Assembly: GCA_937958695.1 (NCBI GenBank)
Contig: CALGNK010000006.1
Location: forward strand, 1-64,000
Source: an uncultured bacterium
GTDB taxonomy: Bacteria; DUMJ01
Reading direction: 5' to 3'
Length of the DNA stretch: 64,000 nucleotides
Positions 25,037 to 57,620 of this stretch are shown one piece after another; position 1 is the stretch's first letter; each line of letters begins with the position of its first letter. Below the pieces are notes generated by a model. The model searched no databases. It was not told the origin of the DNA and saw nothing but the letters and a program-made list of their open reading frames with translations. A program made the position numbers and the translations under genes.

Positions 25037-25742
25037 AACTCTCACCTACCTTTTTATGGAATTGAAGCTCTAAAATACCTTCTTGCTTCTTTTTTATTAT
25101 GCTGTCTAATTCGGACAGCCGTAGCCTCCTATCTTTACTTCTTGTTATGGCAGAACCTATAACTAACATATCTACGCCGAGGTCTAGAAGTTTTTCTATA
25201 TTCTCTCCGTTTATACCACCATCCACTTCTATAAGAGGAGAAACACCTAAGCTCTTACATAATTCTCTCAGATCCTTTAGCCTTTTAAATGTATTTTCTA
25301 TAAACTCTTGTCCTCCAAAACCTGGATTTACGCTCATTAATAATACTAGGTCTACATCTTTTATGATGTCTTCTAGGAGAAATACTGGGGTCCCTGGGTT
25401 TATAGCAATACCAGCCTTACAGCCGCTAATCTTTATGTAGGATATAACTCTATGTATATGCGGAGTTGATTCCAAATGGACTGTTATTAGATCTGCTCCT
25501 GCTTTTATAAATAGATCTAAAAAGTTTTCTGGAGGAGTCACCATAAGATGCACATCTAATAAGAACTTATCACCTTCTCTTATTGATTCTACAAATTGCG
25601 GTCCAAAACTTAGATTCGGTACAAAATGTCCATCCATTATATCTATATGTAACCATTCTATCCCAAAATCTCTGAACTCTTCTAATAAGTTCTTAAGATC
25701 TAATATATCTGCTGAGAGGAGAGATGGAACTATTTGCGCCAT
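25029..25742 (-). CDS. rpe: Ribulose-phosphate 3-epimerase
   Basis: Rpe interconverts ribulose 5-phosphate and xylulose 5-phosphate in the pentose phosphate route. The 237-residue TIM barrel has LHIDIMDGHFVPNLSFGP, VHLMVTPPE, LMSVNPGFGGQEFI and IEVDGGI, with the metal-binding His and Asp residues intact. It overlaps murI upstream by 13 bases and the zinc-ribbon gene downstream by 8. Confidence 0.95.
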   Translation of the reverse strand: MAQIVPSLLSADILDLKNLLEEFRDFGIEWLHIDIMDGHFVPNLSFGPQFVESIREGDKFLLDVHLMVTPPENFLDLFIKAGADLITVHLESTPHIHRVISYIKISGCKAGIAINPGTPVFLLEDIIKDVDLVLLMSVNPGFGGQEFIENTFKRLKDLRELCKSLGVSPLIEVDGGINGENIEKLLDLGVDMLVIGSAITRSKDRRLRLSELDSIIKKKQEGILELQFHKKVGESYG

Positions 25743-26557
25743 ATTTTAATCTCTCCCTCTTCTCTAAGATTTATATGTTTTGCTTTAATAGGTCTATTAA
25801 TAAAGACAGTAGCTTTTTCACTGAACTCATAAGCATCTCCAGTAGTAAAAAATCTAACTTCTCCTGTCCCTCTTTCCGTTATACCTATATTCTTCAATTC
25901 TGTCAATAGTTCTTCCACAGCATATATGGCTGGATCAACTATACTTATCTCCTTCTTATACTTTTCTAATAGAATACTACTAATCTCTTCTAAATACAAG
26001 GGATAGTGACTACATCCTAAGATAAGTGTATCTATTTCTGCGTTTATAAGTGGCTCTAGATATATGGTTAAAGCTTTGATTAGAACCTCTCTTTTTACTC
26101 TATTTTCTATAAATGGAACTAATAGTGGTGCAGATTTCTCTACTACCTGTATGTCGGGGTTGTACCTCTTTATAGCTAATGTATATGCCAAAGATGATGT
26201 AGTGGCTCTAGTAGCTAAGACCCCTACTCTTTTGATACATTTTTCTTGGGATATCTTTTTTGCAGTAGGTTCTATGAGTCCAGTAATAGGTAATGATATG
26301 ATATTTTTTATATAATTTAAGGCTAAAGCAGAACTTGTGTTACATGCTACAAGTATTGCCTTTACATTCATCTTCTCTAGGAAGGATAAAATCTGCTTCA
26401 TATACCCTACTATCTCTTGAACTGACCTATTTCCATAAGGCATATGAATCGTATCTGCCACATATACAATATCCTCATAAGGAGCTACTTTTATTAGCTC
26501 TTTTAATATGGTAAGTCCTCCTAATCCAGAGTCAAATAATCCAATAGGACTATTCAT
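25730..26557 (-). CDS. murI: Glutamate racemase
   Basis: MurI makes D-glutamate for peptidoglycan without a cofactor. The 275-residue protein begins with the family motif IGLFDSGLGGLTI. The two catalytic cysteines are in LVACNTSSAL and LGCSHYPLY. The ATG overlaps the amiC stop (4 bases) and the gene overlaps rpe by 13 bases. With alr and amiC, it forms a cell-wall group on this strand. Confidence 0.95.
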   Translation of the reverse strand: MNSPIGLFDSGLGGLTILKELIKVAPYEDIVYVADTIHMPYGNRSVQEIVGYMKQILSFLEKMNVKAILVACNTSSALALNYIKNIISLPITGLIEPTAKKISQEKCIKRVGVLATRATTSSLAYTLAIKRYNPDIQVVEKSAPLLVPFIENRVKREVLIKALTIYLEPLINAEIDTLILGCSHYPLYLEEISSILLEKYKKEISIVDPAIYAVEELLTELKNIGITERGTGEVRFFTTGDAYEFSEKATVFINRPIKAKHINLREEGEIKIWRK

Positions 26558-27855
26558 CTCTTCTTCTCCAAATATCTTAGTATACCTGTTACCATTCCTC
26601 CTGCAATCTTTCTTCTATATAATGGATCCATCAATAATTTCTCCTCTATAGGATTTGATATAAATAGTGCCTCTACTAATATAGCAGGTATATTTGTATT
26701 TTTTAAGAGGAAGAATTCTGCCTTTTTAGCTCCTCTATTATATCTGCCTGTCACTTCTACTAAGGAATTACATACCATCTCGGCGAAAACCTTATCATCA
26801 TCTCTATAATAGAAGACCTCTATACCTCCTGGTATCGATGAATAAGCTGAGTTACAATGTATACTTACTAATACAGCAGAGTTATGATTATTTACAATCA
26901 CAACTCTTGCATTTAGTTCGTCTCTAGAGTTTTGAGGATTTTGGGACACATTATAATCCCCATCTCTAGTTAGAATGACTTGGTATCCTGCTGATTCGAG
27001 CAGTCCTTTCATATATAGGGCAATATCTAAGACTACATCCTTTTCTTTTAATCCGCTTGGACCTATTGCCCCAGGGTCATTTCCTCCGTGCCCAGGGTCT
27101 AATATGATAATAGGCTTAGTTGTTTTTTCAGACTGTAGTATGGGTATTTGAAGTAAAACTGTTCCTGGCTCCTGTATCTCTTCTATCTGCCATTCATTTT
27201 TGATCTCGCCTTTTATAACTATTCTGACAGACGGAGGATATATGCTGAACTGACTCACCTTTAAGTCCACAGGAACTGAGGGATTTGCATAATTATCATA
27301 CATAAGGGTCATGTTAGGTATATCTATTACTATCCTATTTGGGTTAACCAGAAGGAATATTGCAGGGTTCAACTCTTTTTTATGACTAGACACTAACTTT
27401 AAAGATAATTTATCTAGTGCGTTCTGTAAAGTAACTTCTTTTAATCTAGGAGGGAATATGATGCTAATACAATTTTCTTCTTGTTTTATCTCTCTATATC
27501 TTATAGGTCCACTAAGATCGAAGACAATCCTTATCTTATCTTCACCTTGCTTTGCTAGTCTTATTTTTTCTATTCCAGACGTTTCTATCGGTATCTCTTC
27601 TTTACTTATATTTACATTGACTGGAAATATATCTACAAAAAACCTATAAGGATTCTGAAGATAAGAATAGTTAAACTCGAGTTTACTAGATATTATTATT
27701 TTGAATATATCTCCATCTTCTGTCTGCTCCCAAGATATACCTTCTATCGGCGAATATAATAAGGGATAGAAGGTTCCTACGCCGTATGCTAAAGAAGTTA
27801 TAAATATAAATAAAAAGCTAGAAATAACATAAAAGTATATCTTTTTATTTTTCAT
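26554..27855 (-). CDS. amiC: N-acetylmuramoyl-L-alanine amidase with AMIN domain
   Basis: A 433-residue exported peptidoglycan amidase. Residues about 5-25 are a signal peptide or anchor. AMIN-like regions occupy about 40-220 (FNYSYLQNPYRFFVDIFP, NPNRIVIDIPNM), and the Amidase_3 catalytic domain follows: IILDPGHGGNDPGAIG, KDVVLDIA, VSIHCNSA and a late Glu in AILVEALFISNP, all zinc or catalytic positions. The ATG is only 10 bases beyond the tmRNA CCA end and has no Shine-Dalgarno site, which is unusual here. The gene symbol follows domain order and is approximate. Confidence 0.88.
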   Translation of the reverse strand: MKNKKIYFYVISSFLFIFITSLAYGVGTFYPLLYSPIEGISWEQTEDGDIFKIIISSKLEFNYSYLQNPYRFFVDIFPVNVNISKEEIPIETSGIEKIRLAKQGEDKIRIVFDLSGPIRYREIKQEENCISIIFPPRLKEVTLQNALDKLSLKLVSSHKKELNPAIFLLVNPNRIVIDIPNMTLMYDNYANPSVPVDLKVSQFSIYPPSVRIVIKGEIKNEWQIEEIQEPGTVLLQIPILQSEKTTKPIIILDPGHGGNDPGAIGPSGLKEKDVVLDIALYMKGLLESAGYQVILTRDGDYNVSQNPQNSRDELNARVVIVNNHNSAVLVSIHCNSAYSSIPGGIEVFYYRDDDKVFAEMVCNSLVEVTGRYNRGAKKAEFFLLKNTNIPAILVEALFISNPIEEKLLMDPLYRRKIAGGMVTGILRYLEKKR

Positions 27856-27865
27856 TTAATAATTT

Positions 27866-28218
27866 TGGTGGAGGCGGCGGGAATCGAACCCGCGTCCGAG
27901 AATGAGACGCCAAAAGGCTCCTACAGGATTAGCCTCTGTTTAGTTTTCCTTCTATAGTACCCCAGAGGCAGGGCTATAGAAGTAAGCTCACTTGTAATTT
28001 CCTCTTCCTCCTGTGAGCACTAGAGGAAGAGTTAGCCCGCTAGTGTCAGGCCATTTCCTACCTCGCAGGCTAAGGCAGGAATGACCTCCGCCTATCTAAT
28101 TAGGCAGCTAATGCTAACTGATTGTCAGCAGTTATTTTTTTACCGCATTTTTACGAGCCTGCGGTGACTCGTCCTGCTCCTTTTGACCTCTCCATCCCCG
28201 TCGAATCCTTACGCCCCC
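27866..28218 (-). ncRNA. ssrA: Transfer-messenger RNA
   Basis: One-piece tmRNA of 353 nt, read on the minus strand. The 5' arm GGGGGCG (28218-28212) pairs with CGCCTCC near the 3' end, with a G3-U pair as needed for alanylation, and ACCA is encoded (27869-27866). GGATTCGACGGGG and GGGTTCGATTCCC are conserved. The tag frame ends LALAA-stop; if resumption is at GCT, the encoded tag is ADNQLALAA. The mature 5' end overlaps the last codons and stop of smpB by 10 bases. I see no good promoter at the end of smpB, so it is probably processed from the smpB transcript. Confidence 0.95.
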
Positions 28219-28673
28219 TTGTATTCTTTTAAGGCTCTCTCTAACTCTCTTACCTTTTCTTTTTCTATAAGTAATCTCTTTTTATCTACCAGTTTCCTAC
28301 CCTTAGCTAGAGCTATCTCTAATTTAGCCCTCCCTTTTTTAAAGTATACCTTTAATGGGATTATAGAATATCCTCGCAATTGACTTCTACCTGCGAGGTA
28401 CTCTATCTCTTCTTTATGGAGGAGAAGCTTTCTTGTTCTATCTGGGTCTACATTATATCTACCACCTTCTTTATAAGGTGGTATATGCATATTTATTATC
28501 CAAGCTTCCCCATCTTTTATCTGTATATAACTATCCCTTAGATTACAACTTCCTCTTCTAAGACTCTTTACCTCCGTCCCAGATAACACTATTCCTGCTT
28601 CTAGTGTTTCCTCTATATCGTAATCGTGGTAAGCCTTTCTATTAACTGTTACTACTTTCTCTTCCTCTTTCAA
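28209..28673 (-). CDS. smpB: SsrA-binding protein SmpB
   Basis: SmpB binds tmRNA and carries it to stalled ribosomes for trans-translation. The 154-residue protein has VNRKAYHDYDIEETLEAGIVLSGTEVKSLR, LLLHKEEI, GYSIIPLKVYFKKGRAKLEIALAKGRK and a basic helical tail (KKRLLIEKEKVRELERAL). The final codons KGA-stop coincide with the tmRNA acceptor 5' strand. It follows rpmE by 9 bases. Confidence 0.97.
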   Translation of the reverse strand: MKEEEKVVTVNRKAYHDYDIEETLEAGIVLSGTEVKSLRRGSCNLRDSYIQIKDGEAWIINMHIPPYKEGGRYNVDPDRTRKLLLHKEEIEYLAGRSQLRGYSIIPLKVYFKKGRAKLEIALAKGRKLVDKKRLLIEKEKVRELERALKEYKGA

Positions 28674-28682
28674 AACTATTCT

Positions 28683-28889
28683 TTACTCTCCTAAATTAAA
28701 CTTTCTTCTAAACTTTTCTACTCTTCCTTCAGTGTCTACAATCTTCTGCTGACCTGTAAAGAATGGATGGCATTTAGAGCACGATTCTACTCTAAGTTCC
28801 TTCTTCGTAGAGCCCGTTGTAAATGTATTACCACAAGCACATATAACTATAGCATCTCTATAATATGTAGGGTGTATATCTTTCTTCAT
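28683..28889 (-). CDS. rpmE: 50S ribosomal protein L31 (zinc-binding form)
   Basis: A 68-residue L31 beginning [10 protein letters not shown]. Zinc ligands lie in ICACGNTF and [11 protein letters not shown], so it is the C+ form. AGGAGGAAG lies upstream of the ATG. An extended -10 promoter at 28932-28940 suggests an independent transcript starting here and running into smpB and ssrA. Confidence 0.97.
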
Positions 28890-28931: not shown

Positions 28932-28940
28932 ATTATATCA
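28932..28940 (-). promoter_or_regulatory. Extended -10 promoter of rpmE-smpB-ssrA
   Basis: On the minus strand TGA-TATAAT (28940-28932) is an extended -10 element in the alr-rpmE gap. The -35 region is weak. The leader before rpmE would be about 36 bases. Confidence 0.5.
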
Positions 28941-55728: not shown

Positions 55729-55931
55729 ACAATATAGATATGGTAAAGGCTTTGAAGAGGAGTAGTAGCCGTTTAAGGTGAACTCGCCTCGGAGCTGGAT
55801 AGGTGAAATAGTAGTAGCTTATCCCGGGAATTCCCGTTATAGAATAGAGAGTGGGCTTAAAAGCCAATTAGGGTGGTACCGCGGAAAGCTTTCCGTCCCT
55901 AGCAGATTTGCTTTGGAAGGAAAGCTTTTTT
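55729..55931 (+). promoter_or_regulatory. Leucine T-box riboswitch (transcriptional) of the ilv-leu operon
   Basis: The T-box AGGGTGGTACCGCG is at 55870-55883; its TGGT (55774-type bulge, here 55874-55877) pairs with the ACCA end of an uncharged tRNA with discriminator A. Upstream lie GGAGCTG (55791-55797), an AGTAG-containing Stem III hairpin and CGGG..CCCGTTA. The specifier is CTC (55783-55785) in GAACTCGCC, i.e. leucine. The antiterminator pairs AGGG with CCCT (about 55870-55900); the rival terminator is at 55886-55931. Stem I seems to span only about 55757-55790, much shorter than the roughly 100 bases of classical T-boxes. High uncharged tRNA-Leu should turn on ilvD and downstream genes. 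Confidence 0.9.
55886..55931 (+). terminator. T-box-controlled intrinsic terminator
   Basis: AAGCTTTCC (55886-55894) pairs exactly with GGAAAGCTT (55919-55927), followed by a T-run to 55931. Its left arm overlaps the antiterminator, so the two folds exclude each other. Confidence 0.85.
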
Positions 55932-55955: not shown

Positions 55956-57620
55956 ATGCGTAGTGATGAAATTAAAAGAGGAATTGAGAGGGCTCCACAT
56001 AGATCTCTTTTGAAGGCGTTAGGTATAGACGATGAGGAGTTAAATAAACCATTTATAGGAGTAATAAATAGTTATTCAGAAATAATCCCTGGTCATACTC
56101 ATCTAGCAAGGATAGCAGAAGCGGTAAAGGCTGGCATAAGAGAAGCAGGTGGGGTTCCTTTTGAATGCGAAACGATAGGTATCTGCGATGGGATTGCTAT
56201 GAATCACAGCGGAATGTGTTTTTCTCTTCCTTCTAGAGAACTCATTGCTGATAGTGTCGAATCACTTGCTGAGGCTTACAAGTTTGATGGCATCGTGGTT
56301 ATCCCTAACTGTGATAAGATTATACCTGGCATGATTATGGGGTTAGCAAGAGTAAATGTTCCTTCTATACTTGTTAGTGGTGGCCCTATGTTGCCTGGAG
56401 AGTATAATGGAAGAAGAATAGACCTATCCACTATATTTGAAGCTGTGGGTGCTGTTGCTAGCGGCAAAAAGGATACAGATTATCTTAGGGAATTAGAATA
56501 TTCTGCTTGTCCAGGGTGTGGCTCATGTGCTGGAATGTTTACTGCAAATTCTATGAACTGTCTATCTGAGGCTATTGGTATAGCCCTTCCTGGAAATGGA
56601 ACCATACCTGCAGTAGAGGCGGATAGGATAAGATTAGCTAAAGCTGCTGGAAGGGCCATAATGAAGTTAGTTGAGGAAAACATTACTCCTGATATGATTC
56701 TTACCAAGTCAGCATTCTTGAATGGAATAGCTCTAGATATGGCTTTGGGTTGCTCTACTAATACAATTCTGCATCTTACTGCTATAGCTAACGAATTAGG
56801 CATCGGATTAGATTTTGATGAGATAAATAGTATAGCAGATAAGACTCCTTACCTTTGTCACCTAAGCCCTGTAGGTCCATACTATGTTGTGGATCTTCAC
56901 AGGGCTGGTGGTGTTATGGCTGTCTTGAAAGAACTTAACAAAAAGAAACTTATAGATAGGAATACTCTTACTGTTAGTGGTAAAAAGTTAGGAGAGCTTA
57001 TAGATAATACTGAGGTTAAGGACTATAATATAATAAGGTCCATAGATAATCCCATAAGAGAAACTGGTGGATTATCTATACTTAGAGGGACCTTAGCTCC
57101 GGATGGTGCAGTAGTTAAGAAATCAGGGGTTGCAGAATCTCTCTATAGATTTGTTGGAAAGGCTAAGGTTTTCAATAGTGAAGACGATGCAACAAGAGCT
57201 ATATTTAGCAACAAGATAGATAAAGGTGACGTTGTTGTAATTAGATATGAAGGACCTAAAGGTGGTCCTGGAATGAGAGAAATGCTTACCCCTACTTCTG
57301 CTCTTGTTGGTATGGGGTTAGACTTAGATGTTGCTCTTATAACCGATGGTAGATTTTCTGGTGCTACTAGAGGTTTGGCTATAGGACATGTATCTCCAGA
57401 GGCTTGGGAAGGAGGTCCTATAGCTTATGTGCAAGATGGAGACCTTATAGAGATAGACCTTAATAAGAGAGAGATAAATCTCTTAGTTGATAAAGAAGAA
57501 CTTTCTAAGAGGAGGTATGAAATTCCAGAAAGTCATAAGCGTAAAGGTTATCTCGGTAGATACCAGAAGTTAGTATCTTCTGCTTCGTTTGGAGCAGTGA
57601 TGGAGGTAAACAGAAAATGA
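55956..57620 (+). CDS. ilvD: Dihydroxy-acid dehydratase
   Basis: IlvD dehydrates dihydroxy acids to the keto acids of valine and isoleucine with an Fe-S cluster. The 554-residue protein has [14 protein letters not shown], the cluster Cys in [12 protein letters not shown] and [19 protein letters not shown], and [22 protein letters not shown] at the C-terminal domain. AAAAGGAGTTG precedes the ATG. It is first in the T-box-controlled operon and overlaps ilvB by 4 bases. Confidence 0.97.

Follow-up and report, generated by a model that had tools for sequence, protein, structure and literature searches.

When the stop codon of a protein gene lies inside the stable RNA gene that follows it, what becomes of the message once that RNA is matured? 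The question is raised by a locus of an uncultured bacterium at which the end of smpB runs into ssrA, the gene of tmRNA. A first-pass annotation of the window (the whole analysed stretch of 64,000 nucleotides) had proposed that maturation of the tmRNA would deprive smpB of its stop codon and that this could form a feedback loop between the two partners.

The smpB–ssrA junction

The genes and elements at the junction are:

28209 to 28673, minus strand: smpB, 154 amino acids, TTG start, C-terminus ...ERALKEYKGA, PF01668 match of 194 bits
27866 to 28218, minus strand: ssrA, a one-piece tmRNA of 353 nt with encoded CCA, found by ARAGORN and as Rfam RF00023
28100 to 28129, minus strand: tag reading frame, ADNQLALAA followed by a stop, tmRNA nucleotides 90–119
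28209 to 28218, minus strand: 10-nt overlap, in which the third base of codon AAG, the codons GGG and GCG and the stop UAA form tmRNA nucleotides 1–10

Both partners look functional. Residues 9–150 of SmpB match positions 2–143 of the 143-position PF01668 profile, a full-length domain, and the RNA, which contains the tag frame, matches the full RF00023 model (1–374) with 216.7 bits (E 3.5e-87). The standard features of a one-piece tmRNA are present: the tag frame, a T arm and a tRNA-like acceptor, GGGGGCG/CGCCUCC, with the alanine identity pair G3-U70 and an encoded ACCA.

The junction reads ...GAA UAC AAG GGG GCG UAA GG AUU CGA CGG. Codon AAG occupies 28220–28218, and its third base is the 5′ G of the mature tmRNA (28218); the stop UAA at 28211–28209 is tmRNA nucleotides 8–10 and directly follows the acceptor strand GGGGGCG. 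The stop codon thus lies inside the mature tmRNA, on the same strand and with smpB upstream, as in the overlap of Carsonella. ARAGORN, Rfam and the PF01668-bearing open reading frame confirm the shared 10 nt, including the stop and the start of the 5′ arm as first annotated. Seven acceptor-stem pairs, G3-U70 among them, together with the CCA set the mature 5′ end at 28218. A cut before this base leaves the AA of codon AAG, and the fragment 5′ of it contains no in-frame stop. The predicted loss of the stop codon upon maturation of an smpB-containing transcript therefore follows from the geometry; the genome encodes a type A RNase P RNA (308.8 bits), and the acceptor stem is retained in the predicted fold of the precursor (z = –5.4).

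The same 10-nt overlap is found in all three species of the genus, the other two being MAG-58 (L009) and SKW194 (L010), whose SmpB proteins are 97% identical in the genus comparison. Such identity in separately assembled congeners argues against both chance and assembly error. We therefore rejected, as very improbable, the explanation that the overlap stems from faulty annotation or assembly or that the mature 5′ end lies elsewhere than at 28218. It is contradicted by the shared junction and by the acceptor stem that places the tmRNA end, and we found no point in its favor.

Transcription of the locus

The two genes belong to a run on one strand that comprises genes for an alanine racemase, rpmE, smpB, ssrA, an AMIN/Amidase_3 amidase and a murI-like racemase. 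The elements flanking smpB and ssrA are:

28932 to 28940, minus strand: candidate extended –10 promoter TGaTATAAT, upstream of rpmE, from the alignment
28683 to 28889, minus strand: rpmE (ribosomal protein L31, PF01197), directly upstream of smpB
26554 to 27855, minus strand: amiC-like N-acetylmuramoyl-L-alanine amidase gene, its ATG 10 nt past the tmRNA CCA
25730 to 26557, minus strand: murI-like glutamate racemase gene, overlapping the amidase gene by 4 nt; the compact run ends here

In the alignment, the element TGnTATAATATTA is unchanged in the three species and the remainder of the gap upstream of rpmE has diverged. This element is a plausible extended –10 promoter and a candidate for transcribing rpmE, smpB and ssrA together. 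The scan returned no terminator-like site on the minus strand, and none was found between the tmRNA and the amidase gene. The 10-nt spacing between the tmRNA CCA and the amidase ATG (27855–27866) is also conserved in the three species and contains no Shine-Dalgarno-like sequence; once the tmRNA 3′ end is processed, the amidase message is predicted to be nearly leaderless.

The tmRNA could also have a promoter of its own. TATAAT hexamers can be seen by eye on the transcribed strand within smpB, and cells normally need far more tmRNA than smpB mRNA. If such an internal promoter made most of the tmRNA, smpB messages would seldom mature, either because RNA polymerase stops or because the message decays beforehand, and the overlap would be of little consequence. 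We consider this unlikely. The promoter scan detected no sigma-70-like two-hexamer site on the minus strand within smpB, and any smpB message that carries its stop runs into the tmRNA. Because the stop lies within the tmRNA, the tmRNA 5′ end is part of every transcript that includes the stop; a complete smpB message cannot be parted from it by any terminator or processing site. The first-pass annotation was therefore mistaken in regarding a separate tmRNA promoter as a refutation: such a promoter adds tmRNA, while the complete smpB message stays a tmRNA precursor.

Overlaps in other lineages

At 2.1 Mb, the genome is compact but not reduced. Within the window, the median distance between same-strand neighbors is 2 nt, and 15 of 41 such pairs overlap, as expected from compaction. 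None of the 38 tRNAs checked in the same genome has its 5′ end covered by an upstream same-strand open reading frame of ≥80 aa, which indicates that packing alone does not routinely drive coding sequences into processed RNAs.

We surveyed 144 genomes of 142 families, which outside the window's own genus are related to it at the level of the domain only. Positions of RF00023 and PF01668 matches placed smpB directly upstream of ssrA, within 300 nt, in 32 of the 142 families, and every junction with the SmpB domain end <70 nt from the tmRNA was inspected. The genes overlap in four of these 32 families and are separated by a spacer in the other 28. Besides the window's genus, overlaps were found in G040 (8 nt; a phylum-mate has a 79-nt spacer), in G073 (24 nt, equal in its congeners G145 and G146, hence in three species) and in G107 (1 nt, equal in its congener G162, hence in two species; relatives from the same family have gaps of +1, +1 and +5). 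G040, G107 and the window's genus belong to three different phyla. A 25-nt overlap is present in STA_72 (L024), a genome from outside the 142-family sample. The overlap thus recurs in at least five unrelated lineages besides Carsonella, and the census rules out that it is unique to that organism. Narrow gaps of +1, +5 and +7 are also seen in other lineages, and the whole series is graded from +79 to –25.

The details of the junction differ between lineages. In the genus of G073 (also L090), the 24 nt hold the codons for GGERSRR, the seven C-terminal residues of SmpB, plus the stop codon, and cleavage by RNase P is predicted to remove more of the functional tail than in the window; the tmRNA of this genus was found by Rfam and missed by ARAGORN. 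In the genus of G107 (L166 and L168), the tmRNA begins at the last base of the stop UAG, and maturation is predicted to split the stop codon (UA|G).

One might suspect that the U at tmRNA nucleotide 8 is a special change that provides the smpB stop. This idea is weakened by the presence of U8 in 13 of 81 tmRNAs and of UAA at nucleotides 8–10 in three loci without overlap. Among other tmRNAs, the share that reaches a stop as early is 4, 5, 12 and 9 percent (Fisher p about 0.006), and the overlap lengths are at the short end of the range expected from phase and tmRNA sequence. This result, obtained post hoc, hints weakly at selection against long intrusions into the tmRNA.

Fate of the smpB message and known systems

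Which rescue pathways would a non-stop smpB message meet in this host? The genome encodes RqcH and two long RF-1 family proteins (open frames of 359 and 348 aa) that are presumably RF1 and RF2; no short ArfB-like match was found among the RF-1 family matches. Based on the presence of RqcH and the lack of a short ArfB-like match, tmRNA-SmpB is probably the main non-stop rescue system, with RQC as a possible backup. Elsewhere in the window, a T-box leader (55743–55903, plus strand; RF00230, 107 bits) precedes a 554-aa open reading frame at 55956 that by eye resembles dihydroxy-acid dehydratase (ilvD).

We favor, as reasonably probable, the following course of events. Through their overlap, smpB and ssrA would be fused within a single compact transcription unit, rpmE-smpB-ssrA-amiC, such that the 3′ end of the complete smpB message would also be the 5′ end of the tmRNA precursor. 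RNase P needs the acceptor stem, the 3′ strand of which lies ∼340 nt downstream, so SmpB should be translatable before cleavage. Leading ribosomes would finish SmpB at the normal UAA before transcription of the tmRNA is complete; a ribosome terminating there would keep the acceptor strand from pairing and postpone maturation. Once the stem has formed, RNase P would cut before G28218 and release the tmRNA, leaving an rpmE-smpB RNA that ends ...UAC AA and lacks a stop. Ribosomes left on this fragment would stall and be rescued by SmpB-tmRNA, and the product would be SmpB minus its last three residues plus the ADNQLALAA tag. This timing draws on what is generally known of RNase P and of the coupling between transcription and translation. 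It also makes the original proposal, that one transcript yields either full SmpB or mature tmRNA, appear too strict, since SmpB may be translated before the same transcript is cut.

As to its origin, the spacer and smpB's own stop were most likely lost during gene packing, and the overlap would be tolerated because early translation yields enough SmpB. The overlap itself is shown, as are its conservation across the three species, its recurrence in other lineages, the RNase P RNA and the foldable precursor; from there we infer co-transcription, timing, tagging and a near-neutral origin. Tolerance is favored by the compact genome and by the gradation of spacings from gaps to overlaps, and the arrangement is most likely a tolerated outcome of operon compaction. 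If the non-stop SmpB message forms, a rescue event would be paid, or a control point gained, for many of the tmRNAs made.

Exact conservation within genera together with recurrence leaves room for function. The overlap could have been selected as an autoregulatory loop in which SmpB supply tracks demand: plentiful tmRNA-SmpB would lead to tagging and destruction of truncated SmpB, and when it is scarce, ribosomes would stall or SmpB would stay untagged. In line with this, three genera keep the exact overlap length (10 nt in three species, 24 nt in three, 1 nt in two), at least five lineages plus Carsonella have acquired the overlap independently, and arfA provides an analogous circuit with a non-stop message repressed by trans-translation. 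But the tmRNA 5′ end is strongly constrained anyway, and conservation within a genus is therefore expected without selection for the overlap. Moreover, two overlap lineages have close kin without overlap (a single family with gaps of +1, +1 and +5, and a phylum-mate with +79), and in 28 of the 32 families with adjacent genes the two do not overlap. The loop would also be an awkward positive control, for without SmpB the non-stop fragment gives neither tagged nor released SmpB. We thus judge selection for such a loop to be unlikely and treat the loop as a conjecture, given that the arrangement fits plain gene packing. Slightly less likely still, in our estimate, is the idea that fusion of smpB to tmRNA has arisen repeatedly and been kept as a self-limiting circuit, with SmpB supply tied to tmRNA maturation. 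If true, maturation of the RNA partner would make the message of the protein partner a substrate of their own complex.

How does this arrangement compare with known systems? ssrA is the most frequent neighbor of smpB (PMC4131195), and ordinary neighbors share the order and direction seen here but keep a spacer before the tmRNA. Coding sequences that overlap a tRNA 5′ end would likewise lose their stop codon upon RNase P maturation, but there RNA and protein are not partners and a loop is impossible; same-orientation overlaps of coding sequences with tRNAs or tmRNA number 379 in 2031 genome projects, ∼1 in 15,000 mRNAs (PMC4131195, Table 4). The arfA gene of E. coli has a non-stop message repressed by trans-translation (PMC10107115), and its RNase III site is cited in PMC4131195. 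There, a processing RNase makes the message of a rescue factor non-stop and tmRNA controls the product, as proposed here; factor and nuclease differ, and regulation was demonstrated experimentally for arfA, whereas here it is conjectural.

The closest counterpart is Carsonella, for which the overlap and the feedback idea were published by Hudson, Lau and Williams (2014; PMC4131195), who cite Mao (2009) for the overlap and state that it occurs nowhere else. Our literature search for smpB-ssrA overlaps matched this paper alone and found no study after 2014. The concept is thus already published, and what is new is its recurrence elsewhere. In both cases smpB runs co-directionally into ssrA, the stop lies within the tmRNA and a non-stop smpB mRNA is predicted upon maturation. 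Carsonella, however, is a degraded symbiont with an SmpB lacking loop and tail and with the overlap in only half of the strains (PMC4131195), whereas here the genome is 2.1 Mb, the SmpB tail is full-length, and the overlap is fixed in three species and found in further unrelated lineages. An arrangement for which the sole published case was a decaying symbiont genome is now seen to be fixed in whole genera whose genomes are of ordinary size and to occur in several lineages unrelated to one another, and this recurrence makes it testable in nature.
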